Below, one piece after another: positions 4,519-32,737 of a stretch of DNA of 40,017 bases. The notes beneath the pieces were generated by a model. It had not been told where the DNA came from. It was given only the letters and a program-made list of their open reading frames with translations, and ran no database searches. Position 1 is the first letter of the stretch; every line of letters begins with the position of its first letter. Source of the DNA: a virus; IMG/VR virus record IMGVR_UViG_3300031669_006923, positions 1-40,017 of that record, one strand, 5' to 3'. Made by a program: the position numbers and the translations under genes.

Positions 4519-6273
4519 ATGCATTGGAAAGTCTGGCGGCAGTTTTATAATGAATTTGTGAGCGCCCCCTGGGGGGAGCGCGGGAAGGTGCTGCAGTGCT
4601 ACAGGCAGACCACGGGATGCTCGCTCAATACCCTGATGCGCAGGCTCAAGGGCATGGGCTTTGACAGCGGCCGGGATCGCCCGCCCGCCCCCGCCCCCCG
4701 CGTCAGCGATGAGGAGATAGAGGCCGTGGCCGCGGCCATCCGTTCATCGCAAAGCAAAAAGGGCCGCATGCCTATGGATACCAGGACGGCGCTTCTCGCC
4801 CTCTCCCAGCGGGGAGAGATGGATCTGGACAAGGCTTCTCCCTCCACAATGCGCTCCCTGCTCAGGGATCATAAAATGGACAAGCGCCGCCAGTTGGCTC
4901 CCTCCCCCCACGTCCAGATGCGCAGTCTCCACCCGAACCACGTCCACCAGGTTGACGCCAGCGTGTGCCTGCAATGGCATCTCAAACCCTCGGGGATCCA
5001 GTCCCGAGACACCGACCTGGCCCAGCTTTATAAACCGGAAAAAATCAAAAAAATCAAGGTCCATTTATTGAGATACATCCTGGAGGATCACTTCTCCGGC
5101 GCTTTTTTCGTGCATTACTATTACGCGGCCGGGGAGACCTGGGCGAATATGTTCGATTTTCTGTTCAATCACGCCTGGCGCGTCAAGCCCGACTGGGTAA
5201 AGGAGAAATATCCATTCGCCCACGTGCCCGCGAAGCTGATATGGGACGAGGGCTCCGCAAACCAGAGCGCGGTCATGACCCGGATATTGGATGCCCTGGA
5301 GGTGGAGCACGTAGCGCACATGCCGGGCAACCCCAGGGCCAAGGGATCGGTGGAATCCACCATGTGGCTATGGGAGCGCAAGTTCGAGAGCATCCTGCGC
5401 ATGGACCCGCCAAAGGACCTGGAAGACCTTAACCAAAAGGCACTCGATTTTTGCGCATGGTTCAATTCCTCGGAGATCCATACCCGGACCATGATGCCCC
5501 GCACCGCCCTGTGGTCCACCATCCGGGCGGAGCAGATACGGATACTGCCCGCCCTGGAGGTTATCCAGGCCCTTGCCCACAGCGCGCCGGAAAAGCGCAA
5601 AGTCGAGGGCAACCTGACCGTGCGGTACAGGGGCCTTTGCTACGACGTGCGCCACGTGGCGGGCATCGCGGCAAGGGACCGCGTGGAGGTCATGGTGAAT
5701 CCCTACCAGCACCCGGACGTTACCATCGCCTACGAGGGCCGCAAATATTCCGCCCAGGCCGTGCAGTTTCTTCCCGCGCTCCAGGGCGGGTTCCGGACCG
5801 ATTCGGTGGTCTGGGGCGAATACAAATCGCAAAAGCAAACCCCGGCCGAGAAGGCAGTCAAAAAAATGGATGTACGGGCGGACCTGCGTGTCCGCCCATC
5901 ATCGGGCGCGCAATCGGGCGCAGAATCGGGCGCAGAATCGGGCGCACACGCAGGTGCGCCCCAACGGATATTGGGCAACCTGCACCAGCGGATTCCCGAC
6001 GTGGCATACCTGGACCGCACCGCCCGGGCCACGGAGATCCCATTGGCCGCTGCCGTTGTTCCACGGGACGTGCCCAGGCTCAAGGCCGCCCAGTGGATCC
6101 GCGACGAGCTGGGCGAGGCCTGGCGGCCCTGGATGGCCGGGGCACTGAAAGACCTGTATGGAGATACAGTGCCGGAGGCCGAGCTTCCGGCCATCATGGA
6201 GAGATTGATAAAACAGGAGGCAAAAAATGAAAATGATCACGTTACATCAGCCCTGGGCAACCCTGGTCATTAA
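4519..6273 (+). CDS. Mu-type DDE transposase A
   Basis: 584 residues. N-terminal DNA-binding helices (about 1-125, including LNTLMRRLKGMGF) lead into an rve/RNase H-like core with D146 (HQVDAS), D243 (LIWDEGSAN) and E279 (GSVESTMW), a DD-35-E triad. The C-terminal part (about 355-430) matches the Mu-transposase beta-barrel domain. It integrates and replicates the phage by transposition with ATPase B. Residues about 452-482 are an unusual Ser/Gly/Ala-rich linker encoded by a short palindromic repeat plus a 12-bp tandem. AGGAGG inside its 3' end starts the following ASCH gene, which overlaps by 47 bases. Confidence 0.9.
   Translation: MHWKVWRQFYNEFVSAPWGERGKVLQCYRQTTGCSLNTLMRRLKGMGFDSGRDRPPAPAPRVSDEEIEAVAAAIRSSQSKKGRMPMDTRTALLALSQRGEMDLDKASPSTMRSLLRDHKMDKRRQLAPSPHVQMRSLHPNHVHQVDASVCLQWHLKPSGIQSRDTDLAQLYKPEKIKKIKVHLLRYILEDHFSGAFFVHYYYAAGETWANMFDFLFNHAWRVKPDWVKEKYPFAHVPAKLIWDEGSANQSAVMTRILDALEVEHVAHMPGNPRAKGSVESTMWLWERKFESILRMDPPKDLEDLNQKALDFCAWFNSSEIHTRTMMPRTALWSTIRAEQIRILPALEVIQALAHSAPEKRKVEGNLTVRYRGLCYDVRHVAGIAARDRVEVMVNPYQHPDVTIAYEGRKYSAQAVQFLPALQGGFRTDSVVWGEYKSQKQTPAEKAVKKMDVRADLRVRPSSGAQSGAESGAESGAHAGAPQRILGNLHQRIPDVAYLDRTARATEIPLAAAVVPRDVPRLKAAQWIRDELGEAWRPWMAGALKDLYGDTVPEAELPAIMERLIKQEAKNENDHVTSALGNPGH
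5872..5962 (+). repeat. Palindromic repeat and 12-bp tandem inside the transposase gene
   Basis: 5872-5897 is a palindromic unit of the 'GTAGGGGC...GCCC' type (arms GGGCGGAC and GTCCGCCC), 5940-5962 is a second unit (arms GGGCGCAC and GTGCGCCC), and between them the 12-mer AATCGGGCGCAG is repeated about four times. The reading frame stays open and encodes a Ser-Gly-Ala linker (SGAQSGAESGAESGAH). The same unit type elsewhere lies between genes. Confidence 0.65.
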
Positions 6274-6655
6274 AGGGGAAAAGAAAATAGAAACCCGGTC
6301 ATGGCCTACAAAACATAGAGGCCCGTTGGGAATTCATGCCAGTCTCAAGCTGGATAATCTTGCGTTCGATGAGATATTCAGACGCATAAAGGAATATCCC
6401 TTTCCGGCTTGTTTTCTGGACAAAATGCGCAACTTGGAGTTCCCCCTGGGCTACATTCTCGGCACCGTTGAAATTTATGATTGCCAACCGACGGAAGCCA
6501 TCAAAGCCCCGGATTACTATGAGGCCATCCTGGGCGATTTCGGGATTGATAGGTATGCGTGGTTTTTACGTCATCCCCACGAATATGAGGTACGCATCCC
6601 GGCGCGTGGAAAACAGGGATTGTGGACATGGGCAAGAAGCCGAGGAATAGACTGA
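6227..6655 (+). CDS. ASCH-domain protein, copy 1
   Basis: 142 residues. The N-terminus TLHQPWATLVIKGEKKIETR is the ASCH signature (hxxPWxxxIxxGxKxxExR), followed by HRGPLGIHAS and the closing GKQGLWTWAR. ASCH domains are beta-barrel folds related to PUA; some members are N4-acetylcytidine amidohydrolases and others bind RNA. The start has AGGAGG at 6215-6220. A clear paralogue lies at 9586-10017. The phage role is unknown; nucleoside demodification or RNA binding is possible. Confidence 0.75.
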   Translation: MKMITLHQPWATLVIKGEKKIETRSWPTKHRGPLGIHASLKLDNLAFDEIFRRIKEYPFPACFLDKMRNLEFPLGYILGTVEIYDCQPTEAIKAPDYYEAILGDFGIDRYAWFLRHPHEYEVRIPARGKQGLWTWARSRGID

Positions 6656-6670
6656 CACAGGAGGTGGATC

Positions 6671-6895
6671 ATGAACGGACAAACGGCAATCACGCCCACG
6701 GCAGTCAAGGAACGCATTGACTTGGACATCCGCAGATACCAAAAGCAGCGCTCGGAGATAGACAGCGCCAGGGGCAAGATGGACGCCGCGGCTTACATCT
6801 TCGCCCTGCAGAATTTGCGGCTGCACTTCTTCGGCGAGACCCTCGCCCCGGACGAGCCGCAGAAAGCGGGGTGCGATAATGGCGCGCGCGGCTGA
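6671..6895 (+). CDS. Small helical protein, copy 1 of a duplicated gene
   Basis: 74 residues, preceded by CAGGAGG. Motif TAVKERIDLDIRRY, then AAYIFALQNLRLHFFGETLAPDEP; predicted helical. A diverged paralogue at 8139-8372 conserves NG..I..P..V.E.ID..IR and the FGE.L.P.E ending. The last 17 bases overlap the start of ATPase B. No family recognised. The position suggests co-expression and perhaps partnership with B. Confidence 0.55.
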   Translation: MNGQTAITPTAVKERIDLDIRRYQKQRSEIDSARGKMDAAAYIFALQNLRLHFFGETLAPDEPQKAGCDNGARG

Positions 6896-8051
6896 GAAGA
6901 TGCCCATCAGGCCCATCGTCCTGGGCCAGGTCCTGCGCGACTGGGGCATCAGAAAACAGGAGGTCAGCCGGGACCTGCGCATCAGCGCCACCACCATCGG
7001 AGCCGCGTGCAGGACCGGCTGGACGCCTGGACTCACCGAGAAGGCTAAGGCCGCGTTCCGCCGCTCCATCGAGGATTATCTGCGGGAGCGGGGGGTGGAC
7101 GAGGAGCTGATCGCGGAGATATGGGAAGAAGCCGAAGCGAGCGGGAAGGCCGGGATTGCGAAGCATACAGACATCATCGAGTGGGAGGTGGAGATGCTCA
7201 AACATGAGACTCTGAAGCATTTCAAATTATTCAGAAATCCGTTCCAGAATGACGTGCGGGATCGCAAGGACGTTTACCTGAGCCAGGATCACCGCTACGT
7301 CCAGGAGGCCATGCTCGACGCGGCCATGAACGGCGGGTTCGTTGCCGTGGTGGGCGAGGTGGGGAGCGGCAAGACCGTCATGCGGGAGCTGGTATTCGAG
7401 CAGCTCCAGCGCGACGAGCGGGTGGTGGTCGTATTCCCCCAGACCATAGACAAGCGCCGTCTCACGGCCTATGGCATATGCCAGGCCATCATCCGGGACG
7501 TGAGCGCGGACGGCGGCGCCCCGTCCAGCTCCGAGCTACAGGCCAGCGCCGTGAAGCGCCTCCTCATGGAGCAGCACAAGACGGGCAGGCGATTCGTCTT
7601 GGTCATCGAGGAGGCCCACGATCTCCACGTCCAGACCCTGCGCTATCTCAAGCGGTTCCTGGAGATCCGGGACGGCCTGGCGCCGGTCATGGGCGTGATC
7701 TTGGTGGCCCAGCCCGAGTTCAAGGAACGCCTCGACGAGCGGAGATCCTACCAGATCCGCGAGGTCATCCGGCGCTGCGCCATCGCGGAGCTGAAGCCCT
7801 TCGGCCAGGAGGACGTGGCCGGATATCTGGCGCTGAAGTTCAAGCGCGTGGGCGCGGAGCTGAGCGCGGTCGTGGACGCCGAGGGGATCTCCGCCCTGTG
7901 CGAGCGGCTCCTCTCCAGGGACCGCAGCGGGAAGATAACCGATTGCCGGGCCTATCCCCTGACCCTGAACAACTACCTGGCCCGGGCCATGAATCTGGCC
8001 GCGGAGATGGGCGAGCCGAAGGTCAACGTGGAGGTGGTGGCGGCGATATGA
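6879..8051 (+). CDS. MuB-like AAA+ ATPase, transposition protein B
   Basis: 390 residues. N-terminal HTH region (about 10-70: LRDWGIRKQEVSRDLRISATTI) as in MuB, a linker, then the ATPase core with Walker A GEVGSGKT (159-166) and Walker B FVLVIEEAH (239-247); the sensor-like segment GVILVAQPEF follows near 278. MuB-type proteins bind target DNA, activate the transposase and mediate target immunity. It lies one ASCH gene and one small gene downstream of the transposase. ATG 6879 overlaps the previous gene by 17 bases and lacks a strong ribosome site, so translational coupling is likely. Confidence 0.88.
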   Translation: MARAAEKMPIRPIVLGQVLRDWGIRKQEVSRDLRISATTIGAACRTGWTPGLTEKAKAAFRRSIEDYLRERGVDEELIAEIWEEAEASGKAGIAKHTDIIEWEVEMLKHETLKHFKLFRNPFQNDVRDRKDVYLSQDHRYVQEAMLDAAMNGGFVAVVGEVGSGKTVMRELVFEQLQRDERVVVVFPQTIDKRRLTAYGICQAIIRDVSADGGAPSSSELQASAVKRLLMEQHKTGRRFVLVIEEAHDLHVQTLRYLKRFLEIRDGLAPVMGVILVAQPEFKERLDERRSYQIREVIRRCAIAELKPFGQEDVAGYLALKFKRVGAELSAVVDAEGISALCERLLSRDRSGKITDCRAYPLTLNNYLARAMNLAAEMGEPKVNVEVVAAI

Positions 8052-8053
8052 AC

Positions 8054-8116
8054 GTATGGGCACGGCGCGCCGTGCCCATACAGCAATTCGTCATTCCGGC
8101 GAAAGCCGGAATCCAG
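8054..8116 (+). repeat. Two dispersed repeats: 28-bp perfect palindrome and 'CATTCCGG' hairpin
   Basis: 8054-8081 is a perfect 28-bp palindrome (half GTATGGGCACGGCG). 8091-8116 is a hairpin (TTCCGGC, loop GAAA, GCCGGAA) whose 26 bases recur exactly at 12711-12736 and inverted, diverged, at 10403-10428. Both resemble chromosomal intergenic repeats. They fill the gap after ATPase B. Confidence 0.75.
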
Positions 8117-8842: not shown

Positions 8843-8868
8843 GTAGGGGCGCAATGAATTGCGCCCAT
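8843..8868 (+). repeat. 'GTAGGGGC' palindromic repeat
   Basis: Unit with arms GGGCGCAAT and ATTGCGCCC, just upstream of the AGGAGG of the next gene. A nearly identical unit lies at 29444-29469. Confidence 0.7.
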
Positions 8869-9120: not shown

Positions 9121-9582
9121 ATGAATGAGATCAAAATATTATGGAACGCGCTTGTCAATGTCTGGATTACCGTCCGGGACATCCAGGCCCCCAACCGCCG
9201 CCTTGCCTGCCAGATGGCTCTGACAGGGGCGCCGCCCCGCGCCATAGTCATGGAGTGCTGGCCGGCCGAGCCGGGCGTCTGGCACGTAACCTACAAGGCC
9301 ATGATCACCGTCAGGGACATCGTGGCCGAGACCCGCAAGGACGCCTGCCTGCGCGCCGTGGAGCACGTGGAAGGGAATGCAATGGTGGAGCATTGCTGGA
9401 AAGCTGACCATGATTCACATGATTCAGGGATTAACAAGATGCACTCGAAAGAGAAATTTAGGGCGCCCGCGGGAACGGACTTCTCCGATGCCAGCCCGCC
9501 CACATCTGTAGGGGCACGGCGCGCCGTGCCCGCACAAAAAACCTCCTCCCCCCTGGCGGGGGAGGGTCGGGGTGGGGGGTGA
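9121..9582 (+). CDS. Two-repeat small protein with a repeat-derived tail
   Basis: 153 residues; GGAGG upstream. It contains two similar units: WITVRDIQAPNRRLACQMAL ending in VMECWPA (about residues 17-56) and MITVRDIVAETRKDACLRAV ending in VEHCWKA (about 60-96), an internal duplication. The final 50 residues (GARRAVPAQKTSSPLAGEGR...) are simply a translation of two dispersed intergenic repeats at 9508-9535 and 9544-9582, so the native protein probably ended earlier. Function unknown. Confidence 0.5.
   Translation: MNEIKILWNALVNVWITVRDIQAPNRRLACQMALTGAPPRAIVMECWPAEPGVWHVTYKAMITVRDIVAETRKDACLRAVEHVEGNAMVEHCWKADHDSHDSGINKMHSKEKFRAPAGTDFSDASPPTSVGARRAVPAQKTSSPLAGEGRGGG
9508..9582 (+). repeat. 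Two dispersed repeats inside a reading frame
   Basis: 9508-9535 has the perfect core palindrome GGGCACGGCG/CGCCGTGCCC. 9544-9582 is the 'CCCCCTGGCGGGGGAGGG TCGGGGTGGGG' type hairpin, also seen at 24518-24556 and in AT-richer form at three more sites. Confidence 0.7.
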
Positions 9583-9585: not shown

Positions 9586-10017
9586 ATGAAGGCATTGACT
9601 CTATACCAGCCCTGGGCGAGTTTTGTCGCCTGCGGATTGAAAAAATGGGAGACGCGTTCCTGGGCCACCGAATATAGAGGCCCGCTGGCGATCCATTCTG
9701 CATTGCGTCCGGTGGATGGTTTTCTTTCGACAGTAGAAAAGAACATCCCGAAAGATTTACTTCCCAGAGGGTATCCCCTTGGTTGCGTGTTAGCGGAGGT
9801 TGAATTGGTCGAAATCTATCCCACGGATTTTCAGGAGGTTTCCGAAACAGAGCGACTCCTGGGAGATTGGAGACCAGGCCGCTTTGCATGGCAGTTGAAA
9901 TTGTCGTATGCGGTCAACGTGCCGTGGCACGCCAGGGGCGGCCGCGGTCTATGGAATTTACTACCTGAACGATCGGGGCTATTACTTGAAATTGACCTGT
10001 CCAAATTGCAAATATGA
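9586..10017 (+). CDS. ASCH-domain protein, copy 2
   Basis: 143 residues. TLYQPWASFVACGLKKWETR and YRGPLAIHSA repeat the ASCH signature of copy 1 (6227-6655), and the end (ARGGRGLWNLL) matches too. The ribosome site GGGGGTG is supplied by the adjacent dispersed repeat. Codon use is more AT-rich than in its neighbours. Two ASCH genes in one small phage suggest a useful, perhaps diverged, activity on nucleosides or RNA. Confidence 0.75.
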   Translation: MKALTLYQPWASFVACGLKKWETRSWATEYRGPLAIHSALRPVDGFLSTVEKNIPKDLLPRGYPLGCVLAEVELVEIYPTDFQEVSETERLLGDWRPGRFAWQLKLSYAVNVPWHARGGRGLWNLLPERSGLLLEIDLSKLQI

Positions 10018-10669
10018 GTTCGATCCCGGTTGGCACCTTCCGGCCCTCGACAAGGCCAGGCGCTTCTTCGGCCCGGACTACCCGCGCGTGACCGCGTACC
10101 TTGACCTATTCCGCCGCGCGCCAGGAGCCGGCATGAACCTCAGCAAGCGCCTGCGGCTTCTCCGCGAGGTGGCGAAGATCATCCAGGATGAATCGTTCAC
10201 CTACGACCGCCAGGCCCACGGCGCGGACCGGGACGCGGCCCTTACCTGCATGGACTTGGCCGTGGAGGCATTATGCAAAAAGCATGCCTGCGGCCTGAAA
10301 AGCCATAACTACTGGAAGAGCATAATGGTCTCAAAGGCCGCGGAGATCATGGCGGATAAACGGGACGCGGATCTTCGGGAAAAGGAGGAGAGACTGCGAA
10401 AACTGGATTCCGGTTTTCACCGGAATGACGGCATGGAGGCGGTCCCGGCGCCCTTGAAAGCGGCCATCGCCGGCATTTTCAAGCCCATCGACGCGCCCCC
10501 GGAGGAGATGGACCGCATCCGGGCCGCCGCCAGGGAGATAGTCGGCATGATCCGCACCGGCGAGCGCAGGCCGGAAATGACGGCGCGGGTCTGCCTGAAA
10601 CATAACGTGGACCCATACAAAGTCCACCAGTTGGTGGAGCAGACAGGAGGAGAAGACGATGGCGACTGA
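9986..10669 (+). CDS. Hypothetical protein with N-terminal zinc motif
   Basis: About 227 residues if it starts at TTG 9986 (GGGG upstream); the start is uncertain and overlaps the ASCH gene. CPNCKYEFDPGWH near the N-terminus is a zinc-knuckle-like motif. Helical segments follow, with ERLRKLDSGFHRNDGMEA encoded by a 'CATTCCGG' dispersed repeat (10403-10428) in the middle. The C-terminal helices (EEMDRIRAAAREIVGMIRTG) may be a small DNA-binding domain. Function unknown. Confidence 0.5.
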   Translation: MKLTCPNCKYEFDPGWHLPALDKARRFFGPDYPRVTAYLDLFRRAPGAGMNLSKRLRLLREVAKIIQDESFTYDRQAHGADRDAALTCMDLAVEALCKKHACGLKSHNYWKSIMVSKAAEIMADKRDADLREKEERLRKLDSGFHRNDGMEAVPAPLKAAIAGIFKPIDAPPEEMDRIRAAAREIVGMIRTGERRPEMTARVCLKHNVDPYKVHQLVEQTGGEDDGD

Positions 10670-11201
10670 GAGAATCAAATGCGAGTCCCCGGACTGCAAG
10701 GACATTGCAGTCCATACCTATAACCTGAAGCATCTCTGCGAGCTGCACTACACGATGGCCCTGGGCGAGGAGGAGGGAGAGGAACTTTTCGGAGCGAACG
10801 CGAAAACCGCGGCCGCCCCCATAAAAAAGGGCGATCTGGTGCTGATGCAAAAAGAAAAGGCCATGCCCCCCTGCGCCGGCAAGGGATGCTCCCGCGGCGG
10901 GAAGTTCGAACTGGATGGCCAGCGCTACTGCCGCTGGCATTACTCGGCCATGAAAAACAAGGAGGCCTGGGATCGCAAGAGGGAAGCGGGAATCACCACG
11001 CGGCCAAAGAAAAAGTCCCGCATCGAATCAACCTGTCATTTCGACCAAAGGGAGAAATCTCGCAGCGAGGAATCCAGGCCCGACCCGGCCCGGACCTGGC
11101 GGCTCACCCTGACCCGCGACGACGGCGAGCGCCGCATGGAGCGCGGCGCCATCTCCGACGCCGAGGCCCGGCGCATCCACAACGAACTTTTCTGGAGGTA
11201 A
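10659..11201 (+). CDS. Protein with two zinc-finger-like motifs
   Basis: 180 residues, AGGAGG upstream, overlapping the previous gene. Two similar Cys/His clusters: CESPDCKDIAVHTYNLKHLCELH (shown in parts: CESPDC and LCELH, residues 8-30) and CAGKGC with YCRWH (about 72-94), each C-x4-C...C-x2-H. Residues about 126-142 (CHFDQREKSRSEES) are encoded by a dispersed repeat at 11035-11068 that recurs exactly at 25604-25637. Probably nucleic-acid binding. Confidence 0.55.
   Translation: MATERIKCESPDCKDIAVHTYNLKHLCELHYTMALGEEEGEELFGANAKTAAAPIKKGDLVLMQKEKAMPPCAGKGCSRGGKFELDGQRYCRWHYSAMKNKEAWDRKREAGITTRPKKKSRIESTCHFDQREKSRSEESRPDPARTWRLTLTRDDGERRMERGAISDAEARRIHNELFWR
11035..11068 (+). repeat. 'GTCATTTCGACC' dispersed repeat inside a gene
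   Basis: 34 bases identical to 25604-25637, where the same sequence is half of a long hairpin between genes. Here it is translated in frame. Confidence 0.75.
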
Positions 11202-11794: not shown

Positions 11795-12229
11795 ATGGCC
11801 GGATGCGACATCTATGATATTCCGCCCAGGCCGGATCATTGCGACGGCCCGCCCAGGCTGCCGTCCGCCAAGCAGAGGCAATATTTTCAGGACATTGCCG
11901 GGCGCGTGGTGAAAAAGCTCCAGCCCTCAGACCCGGACGCCTGGCTGCGGGGCTTCTGCCGCCAGGCCATCGGCAGAGACCGGCCGGCCACGGCCCAGGA
12001 TTTCAACAAGGCCATAACCGCCCTCGAGCACCGCGCGGGCAAGCGGGATCGGCAGGGATTGAGGACACCCCCGGGGCTGCTGAAAAAGATGTGGACGCTG
12101 GCCCGCATCGGCCCCGGAGAGCTGACCCTGCGGGACATCGTGCATGAAGTAACGGGCCACCGCACCGATTCCACCCGGCACCTCAGCCGCAAAGAGGCGC
12201 GGGAGGTCGTCAAAAGGTTGAAACCGTAG
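11795..12229 (+). CDS. Mu gp16/GemA-like protein
   Basis: 144 residues. SAKQRQYFQDIAGRVV and the C-terminal LTLRDIVHEVTGHRTDSTRHLSRKEAREVVKRL resemble the GemA/gp16 (DUF1018) pattern 'L...V..vtG..S.r.Lt..EA..vi..L'. In Mu and relatives this gene lies in the middle region and affects host gene expression. Two bases separate it from the previous gene. Moderately sure. Confidence 0.6.
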   Translation: MAGCDIYDIPPRPDHCDGPPRLPSAKQRQYFQDIAGRVVKKLQPSDPDAWLRGFCRQAIGRDRPATAQDFNKAITALEHRAGKRDRQGLRTPPGLLKKMWTLARIGPGELTLRDIVHEVTGHRTDSTRHLSRKEAREVVKRLKP

Positions 12230-12249
12230 GGGCGCGATTCATCGCGTCC
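12226..12249 (+). repeat. 'GTAGGGGC' palindromic repeat
   Basis: Unit with arms GGCGCGAT and ATCGCGTCC; it begins at the stop of the gp16-like gene. Confidence 0.6.
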
Positions 12250-12484: not shown

Positions 12485-12751
12485 GTGCGGCCAAATGGGA
12501 CAAATGGGACCACGCCCCTCTTTTTTCCCGGTATCCTCCTCTTATAAGTCTCATTTTTACCTCCTGTTGTGGCCGGCGCCGGCAGCGTGTCGGCGCCGGA
12601 GATTTTCCCGGTTTTCACAGGGACAAGATTCGATACTGACGCGCAGAGCGCACCGTGGCCGCCCGGGGAGACGGCATCACCCTCACGAGGGGATCTCCCC
12701 GCTTACATCGTCATTCCGGCGAAAGCCGGAATCCAGTCTTTCAGGGGGCGT
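12485..12751 (+). promoter_or_regulatory. Late leader region with possible activator sites
   Basis: 267 bp without a gene. AAATGGGAC is repeated head to tail (12493-12501, 12502-12510); this includes TGGGACAAAT, an exact copy of the box at the right phage end. TATAAG (12543-12548) could be a -10 element without a good -35, as expected for an activator-dependent late promoter. Hairpins follow: CCGGCGCCG/CGGCGCCGG (12573-12599), GGGGAGA/TCTCCCC (12665-12700) and a dispersed 'CATTCCGG' repeat (12711-12736). The promoter assignment is inference. Confidence 0.4.
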
Positions 12752-13291
12752 ATGGAAAAGTACAAGGCCCTGATCCTCGACCCATCCCGCGAGTTCGATG
12801 TGGACCCCCATTTAATCCATGCGGTGATCCAGGTGGAGTCCTCGTTCCGGCCCGACGCCCTATCATCCAGTGGCGCGGCCGGGCTTATGCAGATCATGCC
12901 TGAAACGTTCGTTGAAGCGGCTCAGGCCCTGCAATTGGAAAAGCCCGACATCTGGGACCCGGCGCAGAACATCCGCTGCGGGACCTATTACCTGCGGCGG
13001 CAGTACGACAAGTTCCCCACGGTGAGGGAAAAGACCGAGCGCTGGCAATTCGCCCTTGCCTCGTATAACTGCGGCGCCGGATACGTGCAGATCGCATATC
13101 GTCTCGCCGAGATCCGACACGGCAGCCTTGCGGGATGCTGGGGCATCACCGCGCCGTTTTTATCCGATCCGCAAACCCGGATCAACGACAAGCGGCCCCT
13201 GGCGATAGAGGTCATGGACTATGTCCAGCGTGTCATGGTGGAGTTTTACAGGGCCAGGAGTCTCGCCATCTACGGAAGCGCCGCAGCATGA
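12752..13291 (+). CDS. Lytic transglycosylase (SLT family)
   Basis: 179 residues. HLIHAVIQVESSFRPDALSS gives the catalytic glutamate E29; SGAAGLMQIMP, the conserved 'NI..G..YL' (NIRCGTYYL) and ASYNCGAGYV complete the soluble-lytic-transglycosylase pattern. ATG 12752 is preferred; an upstream in-frame start would add translation of a dispersed repeat. No signal peptide, so it may need a holin or act in virion entry. It opens the late operon, as expected of an endolysin. Confidence 0.85.
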   Translation: MEKYKALILDPSREFDVDPHLIHAVIQVESSFRPDALSSSGAAGLMQIMPETFVEAAQALQLEKPDIWDPAQNIRCGTYYLRRQYDKFPTVREKTERWQFALASYNCGAGYVQIAYRLAEIRHGSLAGCWGITAPFLSDPQTRINDKRPLAIEVMDYVQRVMVEFYRARSLAIYGSAAA

Positions 13292-13329
13292 CCATATGTG
13301 GACATGGACGTAAAAGGGGTTTCGTGATC

Positions 13330-14274
13330 ATGGTGAAAATATCTTTTGAATGGATTGTCTGGCTTCTGAAAAAAATAATCGGGCAATCTAAATCCGCAAT
13401 ATTAATCACGTTAATCTTGGTCGGTCCAATCACGTTAATCATGGTTCAGATTGGTTTTGCCTCCGATCCCATCCTCTACCTTCGCTGCGAGGACAGCCTG
13501 ATCTCCGAGTCCGGCGTCCGCCCTTCCTCCATGCGCGGCGTGCAGTACGGCCCCGGCGTGGTGGGCATGGCTTGCGAGTTCACCGGGACCGGCTCCGCAT
13601 CGTTCGCCAGCTCCGGCCTCTGGGCCGGGGACCAGGGCGCGTTCATGGCCTGGCTCAAGCCCCGGGGGGATTACAACGCGGACAGCGGCCGGCACGACAT
13701 TTTGAGCATGGGCCAGGAGTTCGCGTTCTTCCTGTCCTGGATGGGCCCCCGCCCGGGGGACCCGGGCAATGTCCCCGGCTCGATCCAGTTCGTACACAAT
13801 CCCACCGCCACGGTTGGCGGCTGGCTCAGCGCCACGGCCTTAGTCTCCTCAATCATGCGCGATAATGGCTGGCATCATGTCGCCGTCACCTGGGGTCCTA
13901 ACGGGAAGCGCGTTTATCTCGACGGCGCCCACAAGGCCCAGGCCGGGTATCCGGCCATAACCCGCGGCCTGACGCCGCTCTACATCGGCCGCAGCTCCCA
14001 CTTCGGAAACGAGGAGCTTTTCCACGTTGACTCCTGGCTTGATGAGATCAGGCTTTATGCCGTGCAGCTCAACGATGCGGAGATCGCTCAAATATATCAA
14101 TCGGAAAAACCCGGAGATCCCGCAGGATGCGAATCTACATATGATTTTGAAACCGGAGTACTCCACATTCCATATCTCCAGGTGGATGGCCTGAGCCTAT
14201 GGCTGGACCTCGAGCTGACCAGCCCAGGCGAGCCGTATCTGTTCGAGCTGCGGGACTGGGGGGAGAATCGGTGA
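13330..14274 (+). CDS. Membrane-anchored LamG (concanavalin-like) protein
   Basis: 314 residues from ATG 13330; ATG 13288, overlapping the transglycosylase stop, is an alternative. A hydrophobic segment (SAILITLILVGPITLIMVQIGFA, about 20-43) acts as signal or anchor. Residues about 45-255 form a LamG/concanavalin-like domain: GACEFTG-like strand, FMAWLKPRG, NGWHHVAVTWGPNGKRVYLDG, PLYIGRSS, LDEIRLYAVQLNDAEIAQIY. Such domains bind sugars or serve as adhesins. Its location inside the lysis cassette is unusual for a phage; host surface display or cell-wall binding is inference. Confidence 0.7.
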   Translation: MVKISFEWIVWLLKKIIGQSKSAILITLILVGPITLIMVQIGFASDPILYLRCEDSLISESGVRPSSMRGVQYGPGVVGMACEFTGTGSASFASSGLWAGDQGAFMAWLKPRGDYNADSGRHDILSMGQEFAFFLSWMGPRPGDPGNVPGSIQFVHNPTATVGGWLSATALVSSIMRDNGWHHVAVTWGPNGKRVYLDGAHKAQAGYPAITRGLTPLYIGRSSHFGNEELFHVDSWLDEIRLYAVQLNDAEIAQIYQSEKPGDPAGCESTYDFETGVLHIPYLQVDGLSLWLDLELTSPGEPYLFELRDWGENR

Positions 14275-15819: not shown

Positions 15820-15843
15820 GTAGGGGCGGGGCTTGCTCCGCCC
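15820..15843 (+). repeat. 'GTAGGGGC' palindromic repeat
   Basis: 24-base unit with arms GGGCGG and CCGCCC between the two terminase genes. Its exact inverse occurs at 18894-18917 inside the portal/F gene. Confidence 0.8.
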
Positions 15844-15856
15844 ACATGATGGGAAG

Positions 15857-17506: not shown

Positions 17507-17520
17507 CATGCCAAAGGCAT

Positions 17521-17621: not shown

Positions 17622-17634
17622 AATACAGGTGGCC

Positions 17635-20802: not shown

Positions 20803-20805
20803 CAT

Positions 20806-20833
20806 GTATGGGCATGGCGCGCCATGCCCATAC
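20806..20833 (+). repeat. 28-bp perfect palindrome
   Basis: Half GTATGGGCATGGCG. Same family as 8054-8081, with compensating changes in both arms (CAT/ATG for CAC/GTG). Confidence 0.8.
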
Positions 20834-20880
20834 AAGGGCGCGCTGTGTTCGGGCATAAAAGCTAAAAAGGAGGATTCATC

Positions 20881-21845: not shown

Positions 21846-21950
21846 CTCCCCCTCTCCCCTTGAGGGAGAGGGTCGGGGTGAGGGGTAAATAAAAGGCAGG
21901 CTGGAAAGCCTTCCCCACAGATTATTGTAAGGGCATGGCGTGCCATGCCC
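21846..21950 (+). repeat. Three dispersed repeats in tandem
   Basis: 21846-21886: hairpin of the 'CCCCTCTCCCCTTGAGGGAG' type. 21892-21919: copy of 17594-17621. 21931-21950: near-palindrome with arms GGGCATGGC and GCCATGCCC. All three lie in the 129 bp between decoration and capsid genes. Confidence 0.8.
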
Positions 21951-21972
21951 ATGCAAAAAGGAGGACCATAAA

Positions 21973-22938
21973 ATGCCAGGACCGACTGCAGCAACCACGC
22001 TCCAGCGCCCCGATCTGGGCGCCATCGCATATGAATATATGCTGGAGGCCAGCCAGAGGGGATTCATCGGGCTTTCCCTTTTGCCCATCTTCCCCACGCC
22101 ACTGAAAACCGCGGACTATCCCGTAATCCCCATCGAGGCCCTGATCAAGACTCAGTCCACCAAGCGCGCGCTGCGCGCCAACTACGCGCGCAATGACTGG
22201 CAGTTCGAGACGGGGACATTTAACTGCGAGGATCACGGCCTGGAGGAGCCCATCGACGACGACGAGAGAAAGCTCTATATGCGCTTTTTCGATTCGGACG
22301 AGGTGGCCGTCAAGAGGCTGACGGATGCCGTTCTGCGGGGCCAGGAGCTGAGGATCGCCACGCTCCTTTTCAACGCGAGCAACTTCAGCCATGCCGACGT
22401 GGGGACCGAATGGTCCACGCCGTCCACCGCCACGCCCAGAACCAATATCCAGGCCGGGATAGCCGCCATGCGCGCCGCTTCCGGGCTTTTGCCCGACACG
22501 ATAGTCATGTCGCTGAAAGTCCTCTGGAATCTGCTCCTCACCTCCGAGCTGCTGACGGCGTTCCGTTACACCAGCCCCATCGAGATCGGCGGCTTAGAGG
22601 CGCAGAAGCGCCTGGTCGCCCAATATTTCGGCGTGAAGCAGGTGCTGGTGGGCGACGCCATGCGGGATACGGCAAAGAAGGGCCAGAGCAAGAGCCTCGG
22701 CGAAATCTGGGACGACGAGTACGTGGGCCTGTTCAAGGTGAGCTCCGGCGGCAATGATCTGCGCGAGCCCTGCGTGGGCCGCTCGTTCCTCTGGACCGAG
22801 AGCAGCCCCCAGAATCTGGTCATCGAGCAATACCGCGAGGAGTCCAAGCGCTCCGATATTTTCCGGGCGCGCCACCACGTGGACGAGGCCCTGGTGTTCG
22901 CCGGCGCCGGCTACCTTCTGGGCAACATCACGGCGTAG
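21973..22938 (+). CDS. Major capsid protein
   Basis: 321 residues from ATG 21973 (AAAAGGAGG). Features of an HK97-fold capsid of the type found in Mu-like phages: N-terminal arm (LGAIAYEYMLEASQRGFIGLSLLPIFPTP), E-loop region with YARNDWQFETGTFNCEDHGLEEPIDD, spine helix with RLTDAVLRGQELRIATLLFN, and C-terminal P/A-domain strands (RYTSPIEIGGLEAQKRLVAQYFGVKQVLVG). Its stop codon lies inside a palindromic repeat that could end or protect the capsid transcript. Confidence 0.8.
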   Translation: MPGPTAATTLQRPDLGAIAYEYMLEASQRGFIGLSLLPIFPTPLKTADYPVIPIEALIKTQSTKRALRANYARNDWQFETGTFNCEDHGLEEPIDDDERKLYMRFFDSDEVAVKRLTDAVLRGQELRIATLLFNASNFSHADVGTEWSTPSTATPRTNIQAGIAAMRAASGLLPDTIVMSLKVLWNLLLTSELLTAFRYTSPIEIGGLEAQKRLVAQYFGVKQVLVGDAMRDTAKKGQSKSLGEIWDDEYVGLFKVSSGGNDLREPCVGRSFLWTESSPQNLVIEQYREESKRSDIFRARHHVDEALVFAGAGYLLGNITA

Positions 22939-23030
22939 GGGCACGGCGCGCCGTGCCCCTACATTGAAACCCCCTCTCCCCTTGCGGGAGAGGGACGGGC
23001 CTGCCCCGATGAAAATCGGGGGTGAGGGGT
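22935..23030 (+). repeat. 28-bp perfect palindrome and 'CCCCTCTCCCC' repeat
   Basis: 22935-22962 has half GTAGGGGCACGGCG and contains the capsid stop codon. 22968-23030 is a longer form of the hairpin at 21846 with an inserted small inverted repeat (GCCCCGATGAAAATCGGGG). Confidence 0.8.
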
Positions 23031-23034
23031 AAAA

Positions 23035-23460
23035 ATGCCCTACTGCCTCAAAGCGGACCTGCCCATCCCCGCGACGCTTGCCGAGGACTACGCCACGGAC
23101 GCCACGGCGGACGACCAGGGAACAAAGGACTCCCGGATAGCCGCGGCCATCGACCAGGCCCAGTCCGAGGTGGACGGCTACGTGGGGGTGCATTACAGCA
23201 TCCCCTTGGATCCCGTGCCCCAGGTGATCAGAGACCTGACCGCCAGGATCGCGGTTTACAAGCTGGCCTTCCGCAAGAACGTTCAGGCCGCTTACCAGGC
23301 GGACTACGACAACGCGATCCGATTTCTCCGGGACGTGGCATCGGGGAAAGCCACCCTGGGTCCGGCGCCGGGCGGAGACGCCGAGGCCCCGAAAGAGGAC
23401 GGCGGCTCCGTGAGCGTGAACGACCGGGTATTTACGAGGGACACGCTGAAGGATTTCTGA
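23035..23460 (+). CDS. DUF1320 head-tail connector (Mu gp36-like)
   Basis: 141 residues. SRIAAAIDQAQSEVDGYVGVHYSIPLDPVPQVIRDLTARIAVYKL is the DUF1320 pattern. Position after the capsid gene and before the gpG-type gene is the same as in Mu. It probably sits in the neck of the virion. The ribosome site (GAGGGG) comes from the adjacent repeat. Confidence 0.75.
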   Translation: MPYCLKADLPIPATLAEDYATDATADDQGTKDSRIAAAIDQAQSEVDGYVGVHYSIPLDPVPQVIRDLTARIAVYKLAFRKNVQAAYQADYDNAIRFLRDVASGKATLGPAPGGDAEAPKEDGGSVSVNDRVFTRDTLKDF

Positions 23461-24457: not shown

Positions 24458-24556
24458 GTAGGGGCGGGCCTTGGTCCGCCCTACAGGGCGCAGCAAGCCG
24501 CGCCCAAAAAATAAATTACCCTCCCCCCTGGCGGGGGAGGGTCGGGGTGGGGGGGG
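24458..24556 (+). repeat. Two dispersed repeats
   Basis: 24458-24484: 'GTAGGGGC' palindrome with arms GTAGGGGCGG and CCGCCCTAC, followed by a degenerate second unit. 24518-24556: GC-rich hairpin identical in type to 9544-9582. Confidence 0.75.
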
Positions 24557-25595: not shown

Positions 25596-25603
25596 CCTGG
25601 CAT

Positions 25604-25680
25604 GTCATTTCGACCAAAGGGAGAAATCTCGCAGCGACAAATCCCTTGAGATTTCTCGTCGCTGCGCTCCTCGAAATGAC
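25604..25680 (+). repeat. 77-base dispersed hairpin
   Basis: Begins GTCATTTCGACC and ends CCTCGAAATGAC with GAGAAATCTCGCAGCGAC paired to GTCGCTGCG and GAGATTTCTC regions inside. The first 34 bases recur exactly at 11035-11068. Confidence 0.8.
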
Positions 25681-25721
25681 ACGTAGGGGACCATAAAAAA
25701 AGCCATGCAGGAGGGCGGGAC

Positions 25722-26292: not shown

Positions 26293-28518
26293 ATGCAGCC
26301 TCTGACCTGGAACGCGAATCGCGAGCAGCTCGGCCCGCAACTGTTCAGGACGGACTTCCACGTCAAGTGGGTGAACTTCCTGTCCGAGACCGGCTGGATG
26401 ACCATCGACACGACCCTGATCCAGCGGGCCGGGGTCGTCGGGATGGACCGGGCGCCCTTTGCCTGCAATCTGGCCGCAACCGCCGCGGGCCAGGCCGCGT
26501 TCCAGGCCAACAACCGCTACAATGTCCGGGATAGAAAGAACATCACCGACCCCTCCTTTGCCTGCCTGATCAAGCCCCTGGGCGTCAGGGACGTGCCCGG
26601 CGAGGTGCAAGGCGACACCATCCTTTATAAGGGCGCATACGAGAAGTTCGGCGACCTGATCCTCCAGGCGTATCACGGCCGGGTCCCCCGGCTGAGAAAG
26701 CTGATCCGGTTTAACGCCAAACCCAACGCGGACGTGCAGCTCGAGTTTGAGCTTGAGCTGCCCGATCTCTACGACCTCGATGCCGCAGAGATTAAGGCCG
26801 ATTGGACCGGGGCCGATACGCTCCTTTCCAAAAGCCCTATCCTTTTCAAGCGCGGCAGCCGCGAGCGCGGCATCTATCTCTCTCGCGCGCGCATCTGGGA
26901 CTCCAACCCCGATCCCGACCTGCGCAAGCAGGCCTTCGTGTCCGTGTCCCTGCGCCTTGACAAGGGCCGCCTGATCCTGACCAAGCACATCCCCGCGGCG
27001 TTCTTTGACGGAGCCGTGTTCCCCGTGTTTACGGATACGGACTTTTATCCTGATCCAGGCACGGGCGCCACGACTGTTGATGGGTATGTAGGCAAGGATG
27101 GCTACATTGGAACTTGGGCCAATATTCGTGCTCAAGCTGGGAATCATCATAATGATACAACCGCTTTGGCTCACTTTTGGTATGCACTTAACTCTTGGAC
27201 TAACGATTGGGACACACTACGTCGGTTTATTTTTACGCTGGACACATCCAGCATTCCTGATGCCGATGAGATAACTGAAGCTATCTTCAAGTTTTGGGTT
27301 ACAGCTAAAGGCAATGGTAATGGATGGAGTGATTCCGAGGCTTCGACTCACCTTGTCTCTTCTTCTCCCGCTGCAAACAATGACCTTGCCAACGCCGATT
27401 ATGGCGTATTAGGCGCAACCAGCTTTGGATCAATAGGATATTCAGCAACAACAGCCGCCCAGTATAACAACATAACCTTAAATGCCAGTGGAATCGCCGC
27501 AATTCTTAAGACAGGGATAAGCAAATTTGGATTGAAATGCGGCGCGGATTTTTTGACTGCTGATCCTGGCGGTCAAGATTCAAATTCCTATGTAACTGGG
27601 TATCATGCCGACCAAGCAGGCGCTGACAAAGACCCTATTCTCTCGGTAACCCATGCGTCCAGCGGCGCGACCTTAGTCATCTCCGATGCGCATCACGGCC
27701 TGATCGTGGACCCAATAGCCCTGACCCAGGTGCATAACCTCAGCGTCTCCGATGCGGTGCACGGCCTCCTGGCGGACGCCCTGGCGCTGACGCAGGTGCA
27801 TAATCTCATTGTTTCCGACGCCGTGCACGCACTTTACGTGGACCCCATCGCCCTGCTCCAGGATTATCTCCTGACCATCTCCGATGCCCGGCATGGGCTT
27901 TTCGCTGACCCCATAGCCCTGACCCAGTCCCAGCTCCTCATAATCTCCGATGCGACGCTGGAGCTGCTTTCGGACAGCCTTGATCTGGGGCAGGCCCACA
28001 ACCTCGTCATCTCCGACGCCCGGCATGCTCTTTTCGCGGATTCCTTAGCCCTGGCCCAGGCGCATGTGCTGGCCATCTCCGACGCCTTGCATGGGCTTTT
28101 TGCCGATTCCCTGACCCTGACCCAGGCGCACATTCTGGCCATCTCCGACGCCGGGATGGATCTCTTAGCCGATGCCCTGGTGCTCGAGGCCGGCAGCGAG
28201 CACTACCTGGTGATCAAGGACGCCCGGCTGGGGCTTGCGGCCGACGAGATAGTCCTGGTCCAGCTCCATAATCTGGCAATTTCCGATGCGCGCCACGGCT
28301 TATTCGCGGACGTCCTGACCTTGCTGCAGGATCAGATGCTGACGATCCAGGACGCGGTCCACCTGCTCCACGCGGACAACGTGATCATCATCACCGGTCT
28401 GCAAAAGCCGGTAATCGTGCGGTTCGAGCTGAAGGCCCGGAGCGCGGAGGGCGCCTGGGCGCAGCGCAGCGCGAAATTCGGCCTAAAAAAGCGCGGCATG
28501 AAATTCCAATTGAATTGA
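26293..28518 (+). CDS. Large virion protein with low-GC insert and eleven 22-residue repeats
   Basis: 741 residues in three parts. (1) Residues 1 to about 250: beta-rich phage structural domain. (2) About 257-455: a segment with much lower GC and different codon use (nucleotides 27061-27655); RRFIFTLDTSSIPDADEITEAIFKFWV is the DNRLRE-type pattern seen in carbohydrate-associated surface proteins. (3) About 461-702: eleven tandem units of about 22 residues with consensus L.ISDA.HGLFAD.LALTQ.HN. A basic C-terminus (AKFGLKKRGMKFQLN) closes it. It probably decorates the virion and may bind host glycans; this is inference. Its place before the tape measure is unusual for a tail fibre. Confidence 0.6.
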   Translation: MQPLTWNANREQLGPQLFRTDFHVKWVNFLSETGWMTIDTTLIQRAGVVGMDRAPFACNLAATAAGQAAFQANNRYNVRDRKNITDPSFACLIKPLGVRDVPGEVQGDTILYKGAYEKFGDLILQAYHGRVPRLRKLIRFNAKPNADVQLEFELELPDLYDLDAAEIKADWTGADTLLSKSPILFKRGSRERGIYLSRARIWDSNPDPDLRKQAFVSVSLRLDKGRLILTKHIPAAFFDGAVFPVFTDTDFYPDPGTGATTVDGYVGKDGYIGTWANIRAQAGNHHNDTTALAHFWYALNSWTNDWDTLRRFIFTLDTSSIPDADEITEAIFKFWVTAKGNGNGWSDSEASTHLVSSSPAANNDLANADYGVLGATSFGSIGYSATTAAQYNNITLNASGIAAILKTGISKFGLKCGADFLTADPGGQDSNSYVTGYHADQAGADKDPILSVTHASSGATLVISDAHHGLIVDPIALTQVHNLSVSDAVHGLLADALALTQVHNLIVSDAVHALYVDPIALLQDYLLTISDARHGLFADPIALTQSQLLIISDATLELLSDSLDLGQAHNLVISDARHALFADSLALAQAHVLAISDALHGLFADSLTLTQAHILAISDAGMDLLADALVLEAGSEHYLVIKDARLGLAADEIVLVQLHNLAISDARHGLFADVLTLLQDQMLTIQDAVHLLHADNVIIITGLQKPVIVRFELKARSAEGAWAQRSAKFGLKKRGMKFQLN
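27673..28400 (+). repeat. Eleven 66-bp tandem coding repeats
   Basis: Each unit encodes the pattern L.ISDA.H.L.AD...L.Q.H with varying inner residues. DNA copies differ at many synonymous sites, so the array is old and held by selection on the protein. One unit is two residues longer (LEAGSEHY). Confidence 0.85.
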
Positions 28519-28525: not shown

Positions 28526-28837
28526 ATGAACATAAACGAGCGATCCACCGCGTATCTGACCGTGCGGTTCTATGCCAAGGACGGCAGCCTCGCCGCGCCC
28601 ACCGCCGTCGTGTATTCGATCCACGACCTGACCAACGGCCAGGAAGTGCGGGCCGAAACCGCGCTGGTGGCCGGGGCCGAGATAGAGATCACCCTGACCA
28701 CTGCGGACACGGCGATCATCAACGACAACAACCAGTTCGAGCGCCGCCTGGTCATCGTGGAGGCGACCTACGGCGTGGACGATGCGGTGCGCAGCCAGTA
28801 CGAGTTCCAGGTTTACAACCTGAAGAAGGTGGTGTGA
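28526..28837 (+). CDS. Small beta-rich tail protein
   Basis: 103 residues, TGAGG upstream. NERSTAYLTVRFYAKDGSLAAPTAVVYSIHD, AEIEITLTTADTAIINDNNQFERRLVIVEATYG, RSQYEFQVYNLKKV: an Ig-like beta sandwich as in many phage neck and tail accessory proteins. Its last base overlaps the start of the tail chaperone gene. Confidence 0.5.
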   Translation: MNINERSTAYLTVRFYAKDGSLAAPTAVVYSIHDLTNGQEVRAETALVAGAEIEITLTTADTAIINDNNQFERRLVIVEATYGVDDAVRSQYEFQVYNLKKVV

Positions 28838-29280
28838 TGAATTTCGATCCCGAAAAATTGAATCAGGACGTCCAGCGGCCCGAGGCGGACGTGGTATGCA
28901 ACGAGCTCAAAGCCCTTTACGATCCCGCGCCCGAGGAGGACGTGGTGATCAGGGTCCACGCCCTGGACGCCGACGGGTTCATGGGCAGCATCACGGCCGG
29001 GGAGAACCAGGTGGCCGAGGCGTTCGTCAAGGCCATCGATGGCCAGGAGACAAAAGGCGCGGCCGACATCCTGCGCCGGGCGTTAGGGCTTGGGGAGGGG
29101 CGCCTGCCTGCAGTTAATCGCATGATAGAGAGCGTAGTCCGGGGATCTGACCTCCAGCACGAGCAGGCGGCCAAGATCGCGGACTATTACCCGATGGTGC
29201 TGATGCGCCTTGGCAACAAGATCTCCGAGCTGACCGGCAAAGGAGGGGAGCTTAAAAAAAAAGAATCCGCGCCCGCGTGA
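28837..29280 (+). CDS. Tail assembly chaperone, short form (G-like)
   Basis: 147 residues from ATG 28837. Acidic N-terminus, then LGEGRLPAVNRMIESVVRG and a helical C-terminal part. It ends with Leu-Lys-Lys-Lys on a run of nine A (29254-29262). A short open frame in the -1 register continues to 29447. This is the layout of lambda G/G-T: a short chaperone and a frameshifted longer form, a little upstream of the tape measure. Confidence 0.6.
   Translation: MNFDPEKLNQDVQRPEADVVCNELKALYDPAPEEDVVIRVHALDADGFMGSITAGENQVAEAFVKAIDGQETKGAADILRRALGLGEGRLPAVNRMIESVVRGSDLQHEQAAKIADYYPMVLMRLGNKISELTGKGGELKKKESAPA
29251..29263 (+). other. Putative -1 ribosomal frameshift site
   Basis: Zero-frame codons CTT AAA AAA AAA GAA contain the slippery heptamer A AAA AAA. 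A -1 slip joins the chaperone to the frame ending at 29447, giving about 203 residues. Confidence 0.6.
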
Positions 29281-29285
29281 GGGCG

Positions 29286-29447
29286 ATGGGCGATCTTTAC
29301 GTCATTTATGTCCTCTGCCACCAGCGCGGATGTTTTGTCTATGAGCATGCGCCTTATATTTTCCCCCAGAGGTTCCTCACCGAGGACGAGATCGCCGGCT
29401 GGGAGGAGTTCTACAAAATGCAGCAGGAGCGCAGTAAAAAAACGTAG
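29286..29447 (+). CDS. Tail assembly chaperone, -1 frame extension (T-like)
   Basis: A 53-codon open frame from ATG 29286 (MGDLYVIYVLCHQRGCFVYE...EEFYKMQQERSKKT) in the -1 frame relative to the upstream gene, open back to the A run. No proper ribosome site precedes the ATG, so it is likely translated only by frameshifting. A dispersed repeat overlaps its stop. In lambda the T part binds the tape measure protein. Confidence 0.55.
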   Translation: MGDLYVIYVLCHQRGCFVYEHAPYIFPQRFLTEDEIAGWEEFYKMQQERSKKT

Positions 29448-29497
29448 GGGCGCAATTCATTGCGCCCTAATGGGCGTGATAAATCATGCCCCTACAA
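29444..29497 (+). repeat. Two adjacent palindromic repeats
   Basis: 29444-29469: arms GGGGCGCAAT and ATTGCGCCC. 29471-29497: related unit with arms GGGCGTGAT and ATCATGCCC in opposite orientation. Confidence 0.7.
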
Positions 29498-29514
29498 ACA
29501 ACAGAAAAAATGAC

Positions 29515-30027
29515 ATGAAAGGCAAAGCAAAGCGCGTTACAAAGCAGGCCATCCTCCAGTGGCTCAAGACCCCGGAGGGCAAGGCCCGGCTCATCATCCT
29601 TGACATGGCCAGGGCCGGGATAGACTGCCGGGGCATGAACCTGGTAGGGCGGAACCTGATTGTTACCGCGGGATACGATCCGGAGCTGCACAAGGCCCAT
29701 TTGATGGAGGGCGGCAAGCTCCCGGACTTGAGCGACGCCCAGCATCAGCGGTGCTGGATTATCGGCATCCTGTGCCGCGTCCTGAAGGCGCGCTTCACCG
29801 GGCAGGAAAGGCTTTTTCTGGACCAGCTCTATCTGGTGATCCTGGAGCCGGACGGCTCGGCACGGGAGGTGGCGCTGGCAAAGGTGGCGGACGCCATAGC
29901 GTTTGCAATGGGCAAGATGACGCCGGAGCAATTCGCCGCCGGCTGGCGGGTGCAAGACGTGGGGACACGGCGCGCCGTGCCCGTACATACATCGGAGCAA
30001 GGCGGGGGCAACGGCCGCGCCGCATAG
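29515..30027 (+). CDS. Hypothetical protein between chaperone and tape measure genes
   Basis: 170 residues from ATG 29515; no strong ribosome site. Basic N-terminus (KGKAKRVTKQAILQWLKTPEGKARL), a cysteine pair (DCRGMN, RCWIIGILCRVL), and a mostly helical body. The last residues (VGTRRAVPVHTSEQ) are encoded by a palindromic repeat at 29962-29983, so the original C-terminus was probably different. Function unknown. Confidence 0.5.
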   Translation: MKGKAKRVTKQAILQWLKTPEGKARLIILDMARAGIDCRGMNLVGRNLIVTAGYDPELHKAHLMEGGKLPDLSDAQHQRCWIIGILCRVLKARFTGQERLFLDQLYLVILEPDGSAREVALAKVADAIAFAMGKMTPEQFAAGWRVQDVGTRRAVPVHTSEQGGGNGRAA

Positions 30028-30057
30028 GGATACGGCTTTGTCCACCCTTAAAAGAGG

Positions 30058-30130
30058 AGATTTCTCGTCGCTGTGCTCCTCGAAATGACAGGCTTTTATT
30101 TGTCATTCCGAACGCAGTGAGGAATCTCCG
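30058..30130 (+). repeat. Dispersed hairpin repeats
   Basis: GAGATTTCTCGTCGCTGTGC to TCGAAATGAC, the 3' half of the 25604 family, followed by TGTCATTCCGAACGCAGTGA, a related unit. They fill the gap before the tape measure ribosome site. Confidence 0.7.
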
Positions 30131-30151
30131 GGTTTACAGGAGGCCTTATTA

Positions 30152-32458: not shown

Positions 32459-32513
32459 TAAACAATTTCCGCCCTTCCCGGACGGATCCGGGATCCCTCC
32501 AGGAAGCAGAATA

Positions 32514-32645
32514 TTGACCAAAGACAAAGGTTGTCCTCACTGCGGCTCGTGGAACCTGCGGCCCTGCCCGCGCCGGGCGGCGCTCTGGTGCCGGGCATGT
32601 AAACGCTGGGTGAATAGACAAGATTTCTCGCTTCGCTCAAAATGA
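32514..32645 (+). CDS. Very small zinc-ribbon protein
   Basis: 43 residues from TTG 32514 (CAGGAAG eight bases upstream). CPHCGSWNLRPCP and CRACKRWVN carry the two knuckles of a zinc ribbon resembling the domain found in IS1 transposases and small regulators. The last residues (DFSLRSK) are encoded by a dispersed repeat (32619-32646). Confidence 0.4.
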   Translation: MTKDKGCPHCGSWNLRPCPRRAALWCRACKRWVNRQDFSLRSK

Positions 32646-32653
32646 CAAAACAG

Positions 32654-32737
32654 GCCTCCTCTCCCCTTGAGGGAGAGGGTGGGGTGAGGGGTGATAATGG
32701 AAAATTCGAAATTCGAAATTCAATATTCGAAATTCTG
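32654..32737 (+). repeat. Two dispersed repeats
   Basis: 32654-32694: 'CTCTCCCCTTGAGGGAGAGG' type. 32701-32737: AATTCGAAATTC-type AT-rich unit with internal ATTCGAAATT copies. Confidence 0.75.

Follow-up and report, generated by a model that had tools for sequence, protein, structure and literature searches.

Dispersed palindromic repeats of chromosomal type in the gene junctions of a Mu-like transposable phage

The phage genome and its dispersed repeats

The window analysed here is a whole virus record of 40,017 bp (IMGVR_UViG_3300031669_006923), a single assembled contig referred to as G000 in the comparisons. Judged from its gene content, it is the genome of a temperate Mu-like transposable phage of 40 kb, that is, of a phage that copies itself by jumping around the host chromosome. 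Both a DDE transposase and a MuB-like ATPase were found by profile searches: the MuA-like transposase (phrog_310; 4519–6273, + strand; E = 1.4e-57) and the MuB-like DNA transposition protein (phrog_296, AAA; 6879–8051, +). Profile matches also placed an endolysin at 12569–13291, the terminase large subunit (phrog_38) at 15833–17506 (+), the Mu-type portal (PF06074; E = 4e-91) at 17629–19578 (+), and the major head protein (phrog_1005) at 21940–22938 (+). A head maturation protease and a tape measure protein are encoded as well. The phrog_310 transposase, the phrog_296 protein and the PF06074 portal are shared with the Mu-like phages (saltoviruses). No DNA match was obtained when annotated phages were searched with G000, and a prophage scan of genomes gave portal relatives at 30–38% only; the scan thus yielded no named host with a close prophage.

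Other features of the genome are as follows. The ORF at 26293–28518, whose product has no assigned function, contains at least seven units of 66 nt (22 residues each) at 27680–28345. A Laminin-G-like protein (13135–14274) and a SPRY-domain protein (37442–38734) are possible adhesins or cargo. Palindromes of the AATCAAACGGCGTTTGATT type occur at 1873–1895 (near the early region), 18918–18940 and 39842–39864 (near the right end), the second lying in the portal gene directly beside an F1c repeat described below; they are perhaps binding sites of the transposase or a repressor.

When a repeat site was defined as a 16-mer that recurs on either strand at a distance of 300 nt or more, 34 dispersed sites were counted in G000; 40 exact dinucleotide shuffles yielded 1.5 on average and never more than 6. 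Strict family patterns gave 14 matches, against 0–0.06 expected per family. An earlier note, made from the sequence alone, had counted more than 25 copies of six repeat types; our hand-made list holds about 30 elements (roughly 1 kb in total), and one of the six types, AATTCGAAATTC (32700–32737), is a single short tandem array and not a dispersed palindrome. The remaining elements form five families: the GTAGGGGC palindromes with several cores (F1), the CGTCATTCCGGCGAAAGCCGGAATCC hairpins (F2), the GTCATTTCGACC long hairpins with their half arms (F3), the CCCCTCTCCCC hairpins (F4), and the REP GGCAGGCTGGAAAGCC, also written GGCAGGCTGGAAAGCCTGCC (F5). The F1 palindromes had been taken as one type. 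They are real, but their cores vary by copy (ACGGCG, GCAATT, GGGGCTTGC, GGGCC), so they are better regarded as a set of sub-families (F1a, F1b and so on). The tetranucleotide GTAG stands 5′ of the palindrome in the F1 consensus and in most copies, with variants at 8054, 20807, 21927 and 29959. The F1a hairpins at 8054 and 22935 have folding energies of −22 to −24 kcal/mol. No inverted doublets were seen among the F5 copies of G000, and a search of the repeats against Rfam gave no match.

Between 8.0 and 32.8 kb, 14 of the 17 listed gaps are loaded, several of them with two or three families. The gap after the MuB-like gene holds the F1a palindrome GTATGGGCACGGCGCGCCGTGCCCATAC (8054–8081) and the F2 hairpin CGTCATTCCGGCGAAAGCCGGAATCCAG (8089–8116, +), the latter identical to the F2 hairpin found ahead of the endolysin gene (12709–12736, +). 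Further along lie the F1b palindrome GTAGGGGCGCAATGAATTGCGCCC (8843–8866), an F1a palindrome (9508–9531) within the 3′ end of the predicted ORF 9121–9582, the F4 hairpin CCTCCTCCCCCCTGGCGGGGGAGGGTCGGGG (9542–9578, +), and an F1b palindrome (12226–12249) whose own GTAG contains the TAG at which ORF 11795–12229 ends. An F1c palindrome (15820–15843, +) separates the terminase large subunit gene from the gene preceding it and is overlapped by the predicted terminase start. Between the terminase and portal genes, an F3 element with paired arms (17520–17589, −) is followed by the F5 REP AAGGCAGGCTGGAAAGCCTGCCCCAC (17595–17620, +), and an F1-like nested hairpin (19576–19612) follows the portal gene.

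The F1a-type palindrome TGTATGGGCATGGCGCGCCATGCCCATACA is located at 20805–20834. Three families are stacked before the major head protein gene: an F4 hairpin (21847–21885, +), an F5 REP one base off the consensus (21892–21917, +), and an F1a-type palindrome (21927–21955). At the other end of this gene, the perfect F1a palindrome GTAGGGGCACGGCGCGCCGTGCCCCTAC (22935–22962) provides the stop codon, again from its own GTAG, and an F4 hairpin follows (22970–22999, +). The F1d palindrome GTAGGGGCGGGCCTTGGTCCGCCCTACA (24458–24485), another F4 hairpin (24518–24554, +), and a full-length double-arm F3 hairpin of 80 nt (25603–25682, +) come next. The last elements are an F1b palindrome (29444–29467), an F3 half arm with a TGTCATTCCGA variant (30054–30126), the F3 half arm AAGATTTCTCGCTTCGCTCAAAATGACA (32620–32647, −), and an F4 hairpin (32655–32692, +). 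Three exact duplications reported earlier were recovered at slightly greater lengths: 28 nt for 8089/12709, 35 nt for 11034/25603 (95% over 42 nt), and 25 nt for the inverted pair 15820/18893.

The earlier note placed many of the repeats between late genes, immediately before ribosome sites. Junction hairpins do occur there, but at least five copies belong to reading frames. One is the F1-type palindrome GTACGGGCGGAC/GTCCGCCC (5872–5898), which is real and is found within the MuA-like transposase gene, in frame in a linker. The others are an F2 hairpin (10399–10430, −) in ORF 9908–10669, where it encodes KLDSGFHRND; an F3 element (11034–11075, +) in ORF 10659–11201; an F1c palindrome (18894–18917, −) in the variable linker of the portal; and an F1a palindrome (29959–29986) at the C-terminal end of ORF 29308–30027. 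The proteins at these copies either align poorly with those of the relative G001, introduced below, or differ from them in length. The transposase linker is longer in G000 than in the relative. The portal stretch exceeds that of the relative by only about one residue, so the copy at 18894 may be a replacement rather than an insertion. The palindromic elements of Rickettsia are likewise found in frame in non-conserved protein linkers; the likeness is one of description, and the proteins concerned here are those of a phage.

The same junctions in related phages

G000 is most closely related to G001 (IMGVR_UViG_3300033148_010412), with which it is colinear and shares 65–74% nucleotide identity over most genes. 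A search of G001 with the F1–F5 family patterns gave zero elements. At most of the junctions loaded in G000, it carries instead arrays of CAAGGT-type units, for example CAAGGTGAAAGG: after the MuB gene (a CAAGGTG array, where G000 has the F1a palindrome at 8054), between terminase and portal, between portal and protease, in the head-gene region, before 24588, and after 32458. In G001 (L090–L092), units of the CAAGGT/AAAGGT type occur in both orientations at the junctions 10363–10413, 18354–18432, 22985–23100 and 28812–28984 (reverse complement). No similar arrays turned up in the bacterial loci examined. In a further relative, L003 (5.6 kb), three of the junctions that bear elements in G000 are gaps of 16–36 nt without any; its portal/protease gap is longer, yet it is also devoid of the elements. 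Since the elements are missing in both relatives, they were gained by G000 after the lineages split and are dispensable at those sites. The earlier note had regarded occupation of the same sites in all related phages, together with absence of the repeats from the host chromosome, as the observations that would mark the repeats as native, and in these relatives the sites proved to be free of them.

This result bears on two alternatives. One is that the repeats are native functional elements of the phage that serve transcript processing, late-gene attenuation or DNA folding, the first and last of which the earlier note had also proposed. Stable hairpins between late genes, just before the ribosome-binding sites, would suit such a role. 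However, G001 and L003 do without these hairpins at the same junctions, some copies form part of coding frames, bacterial chromosomes carry the same sequences in dispersed form, and the Rfam search gave no match; we therefore judge a native function very unlikely. The other is that the repeats are an artefact of metagenome assembly or a contamination by host DNA. Although short exact repeats can cause misjoins, G000 and G001 share one gene order throughout, also across the repeats, and elements are embedded within intact phage genes, so this explanation is hardly credible.

Chromosomal counterparts and a REP-associated transposase

The earlier note had suggested comparing the repeat consensuses with the candidate host genome and related phages. 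Matching dispersed repeats were found in genomes of Desulfobacterota. F1a occurs in 8 of the 297 sampled genomes from the phylum of G006, a Desulfarculales MAG, and 28–30-mers of F1a identical to those of G000 are present in G171, G188, G221 and others, including exact 28–30-mers of the palindrome at 22935 in several chromosomes. The 24-mer of the F1b palindrome at 29444 is found exactly in the chromosome of G188. F5 was detected in 2 of the 395 genomes of the G006 phylum, and a search of 198 genomes around G342 revealed it in G342, G497, G504, G505 and G036, the first four of which are among the nearest relatives listed. Exact F5 copies number 33 in G342, 11 in G497 and 6 in G505, and 28-mers identical to the F5 copy at 17595 are present in all three. 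Five inverted F5 pairs, 31–52 nt apart, are seen in G342, which is the REPIN arrangement. The F1, F2, F3 and F4 types are also present in the G342 sample, and an F2 match in G505 reaches 97% over 33 nt.

The repeats that a virus carries may be a clue to its host. With regard to G000, it is likely that none of the sampled genomes is the exact host: the GC contents of G342, G497 and G505 are 51–56%, against 60% for the phage, and not every sub-family is represented there at its exact core. A Mu-like portal was sought in 60 relatives of G342, and none was found in the F5-bearing clade, G342 included. A search of plasmids with one repeat-bearing junction gave no match. The repeat density of G000 is higher than that of the sampled chromosomes, which is not predicted by simple passive insertion.

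A REP-associated tyrosine transposase (RAYT) in the host had been proposed as a further thing to look for, and one was found in the chromosome of G342. Among the 10 Y1_Tnp matches in this genome, one gene (L219) has inverted F5 copies on both flanks, and the encoded protein scores 106 bits, against a cut-off of 80, with NF047646, the NCBIfam model for REP-associated tyrosine transposases. An inverted F5 pair with the same 524-nt spacing exists in G505, and it looks like the enclosure of a broken copy of the same RAYT gene. On these grounds of sequence and arrangement, F5 is considered a genuine REP element with a RAYT partner. The F5 copies lying within the RAYT frame itself (L219:1315–1953) give rise to the peptides GQAFQPA, close to the N-terminus, and GRLESLPH, close to the C-terminus. 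For the other families, the association is looser. F1-type copies are crowded around L222 of G188, a Y1_Tnp-related frame that scores 21.5 bits and falls short of the Pfam cut-off, and also occur near a second such frame (L218); F2-type copies lie near the Y1_Tnp genes L207 and L217, without a proven flanking pair; and a search for RAYT neighbours of F3 and F4 copies tied none to them.

RAYTs are single-strand HUH nucleases. They are reported to cut single-stranded REP DNA, and the GTAG motif is reported to matter (PMC8266576). Of the five families, F1, with a GTAG-type tetranucleotide beside the palindrome, and F5, at least, look like REP elements. The likeness to the REP/REPIN–RAYT (TnpA-REP) systems (PMC3116915, PMC8266576, PMC3686654) extends from the short, mostly intergenic palindromes and the GTAG of F1 to the inverted F5 pairs in the chromosome and the cognate RAYT flanked by F5; the difference is that the repeats here are in a phage genome, and more densely than in the sampled chromosomes. 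The Correia elements of Neisseria (PMC2649163) and the MITEs of Candidatus Liberibacter (PMC12566600) are similar in being small, non-autonomous host repeats but belong to different repeat classes.

We infer that host repeats have colonised the spacers of the phage, the probable route being insertion of REPs in trans by a host RAYT. The RAYT would insert copies one by one, either into prophage DNA or while the phage is transposing replicatively; gene-breaking copies would be lost, and those at junctions, at stop codons and in in-frame linkers would survive and be carried by virions. F2, F3 and F4 may have spread in the same way. Accordingly worded, the proposal of the earlier note that a host system spreads bacterial chromosomal repeats into the phage is favoured by the relatives without these repeats, the chromosomal matches and the F5-flanked RAYT, with the reservation that the RAYT is tied to F5 alone.

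A host origin by another route also has to be weighed: illegitimate recombination, template switching or gene conversion in replicative transposition, or other mobilisers for F2–F4. The lack of RAYT linkage for F2, F3 and F4, the stacking of several families in single junctions, and the non-palindromic CAAGGT array at the same junctions of G001 all speak for it, and RAYTs are not known to spread such an array. Against it, the elements are bare, no long host flanks being recognised, and F5 is plainly a REP that has a RAYT of its own. We regard this route as unlikely and retain insertion by a host RAYT as the preferred reading.

Repeat load among transposable phages

Descriptions of REPs mostly concern host chromosomes, in which mobile elements fall within REP deserts, and such repeats are normally almost absent from prophages. 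The feature in G000 is real and unusual: the elements are of a mostly familiar kind, but their location is unexpected. About 70 Mu-like prophage stretches taken from bacterial genomes were compared, and in most of them the number of repeated sites is zero or two; this is where G000 departs from the Mu-like phages tested. Its 34 sites are the highest number per length among the Mu-like sequences not selected for repeats, L069 excepted. The statement of the earlier note that compact phages rarely carry such elements therefore agrees with most Mu-like prophages tested, but several other transposable phages do carry them.

Virus contigs were chosen by F5 or F1a alone and then tested with an independent MuA profile. 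MuA was detected in 4 of the 10 independent F5-selected contigs (G307, G312, G313 and G317; G316, being the same phage as G313, was counted once) and in 3 of the 18 F1a-selected contigs of at least 10 kb, two of which are probably one phage. The random-k-mer background of the same minimum length (10 kb) gave 1 of 63. After pooling and removal of redundancy, the comparison is 6 of 27 against 1 of 63 (Fisher P = 0.003), in small numbers and with the phylum of the hosts unmatched between the sets; it is biased against the result because the background contigs are longer. In the examined parts of viral contigs selected by F2 or F4, there was no MuA and one weak portal, so the link to Mu concerns F1a and F5 only. 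The exact F3 27-mer was found in 0 other viral contigs. Two other approaches were rejected: the PF06074 portal alone as a marker of transposable phages, which matches 9 of the 63 random contigs, most of them without MuA, and BLAST with MuA queries drawn from the repeat-selected contigs, which is circular.

A tentative extension is that the whole class of transposable phages offers preferred landing sites to host REPs and transports REP families from one bacterial lineage to another; we hold this to be possible, though rather doubtful. Such phages would gather REPs from successive hosts, as their replication stays in the chromosome and small changes of size are tolerated; headful packaging with some host DNA may allow an extra kilobase. 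A converse relation is known for phage Ab30, which integrates preferentially near REP-like chromosomal sequences (PMC5977238). The passage of REP families between lineages is a question on which G000 bears, and together with the colinear G001, it offers lineage-specific insertion sites outside the chromosome at which REP movement can be tested directly.

G308 is an exception to the link with transposable phages. This contig (L165–L166) holds six F5 copies, five of them in double units of 63 nt, and matches a major head protein; no MuA was detected in it. A second, unrelated transposable phage is represented by G313 and G316 (L167, L168, L171, L172), with 19 F4/F5 copies in 32 kb. G313 accounts for 11 F5 and 8 F4 copies in these 32 kb and encodes a Mu transposase, and the overlapping contig G316 encodes a tail sheath and a GpA terminase. 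It was also found that two ORFs of G000, 6227–6655 and 9586–10017, share one matching ORF in G313 (E values near 1e-9 and 1e-13, respectively), and by this similarity they are likely to be paralogues within G000.
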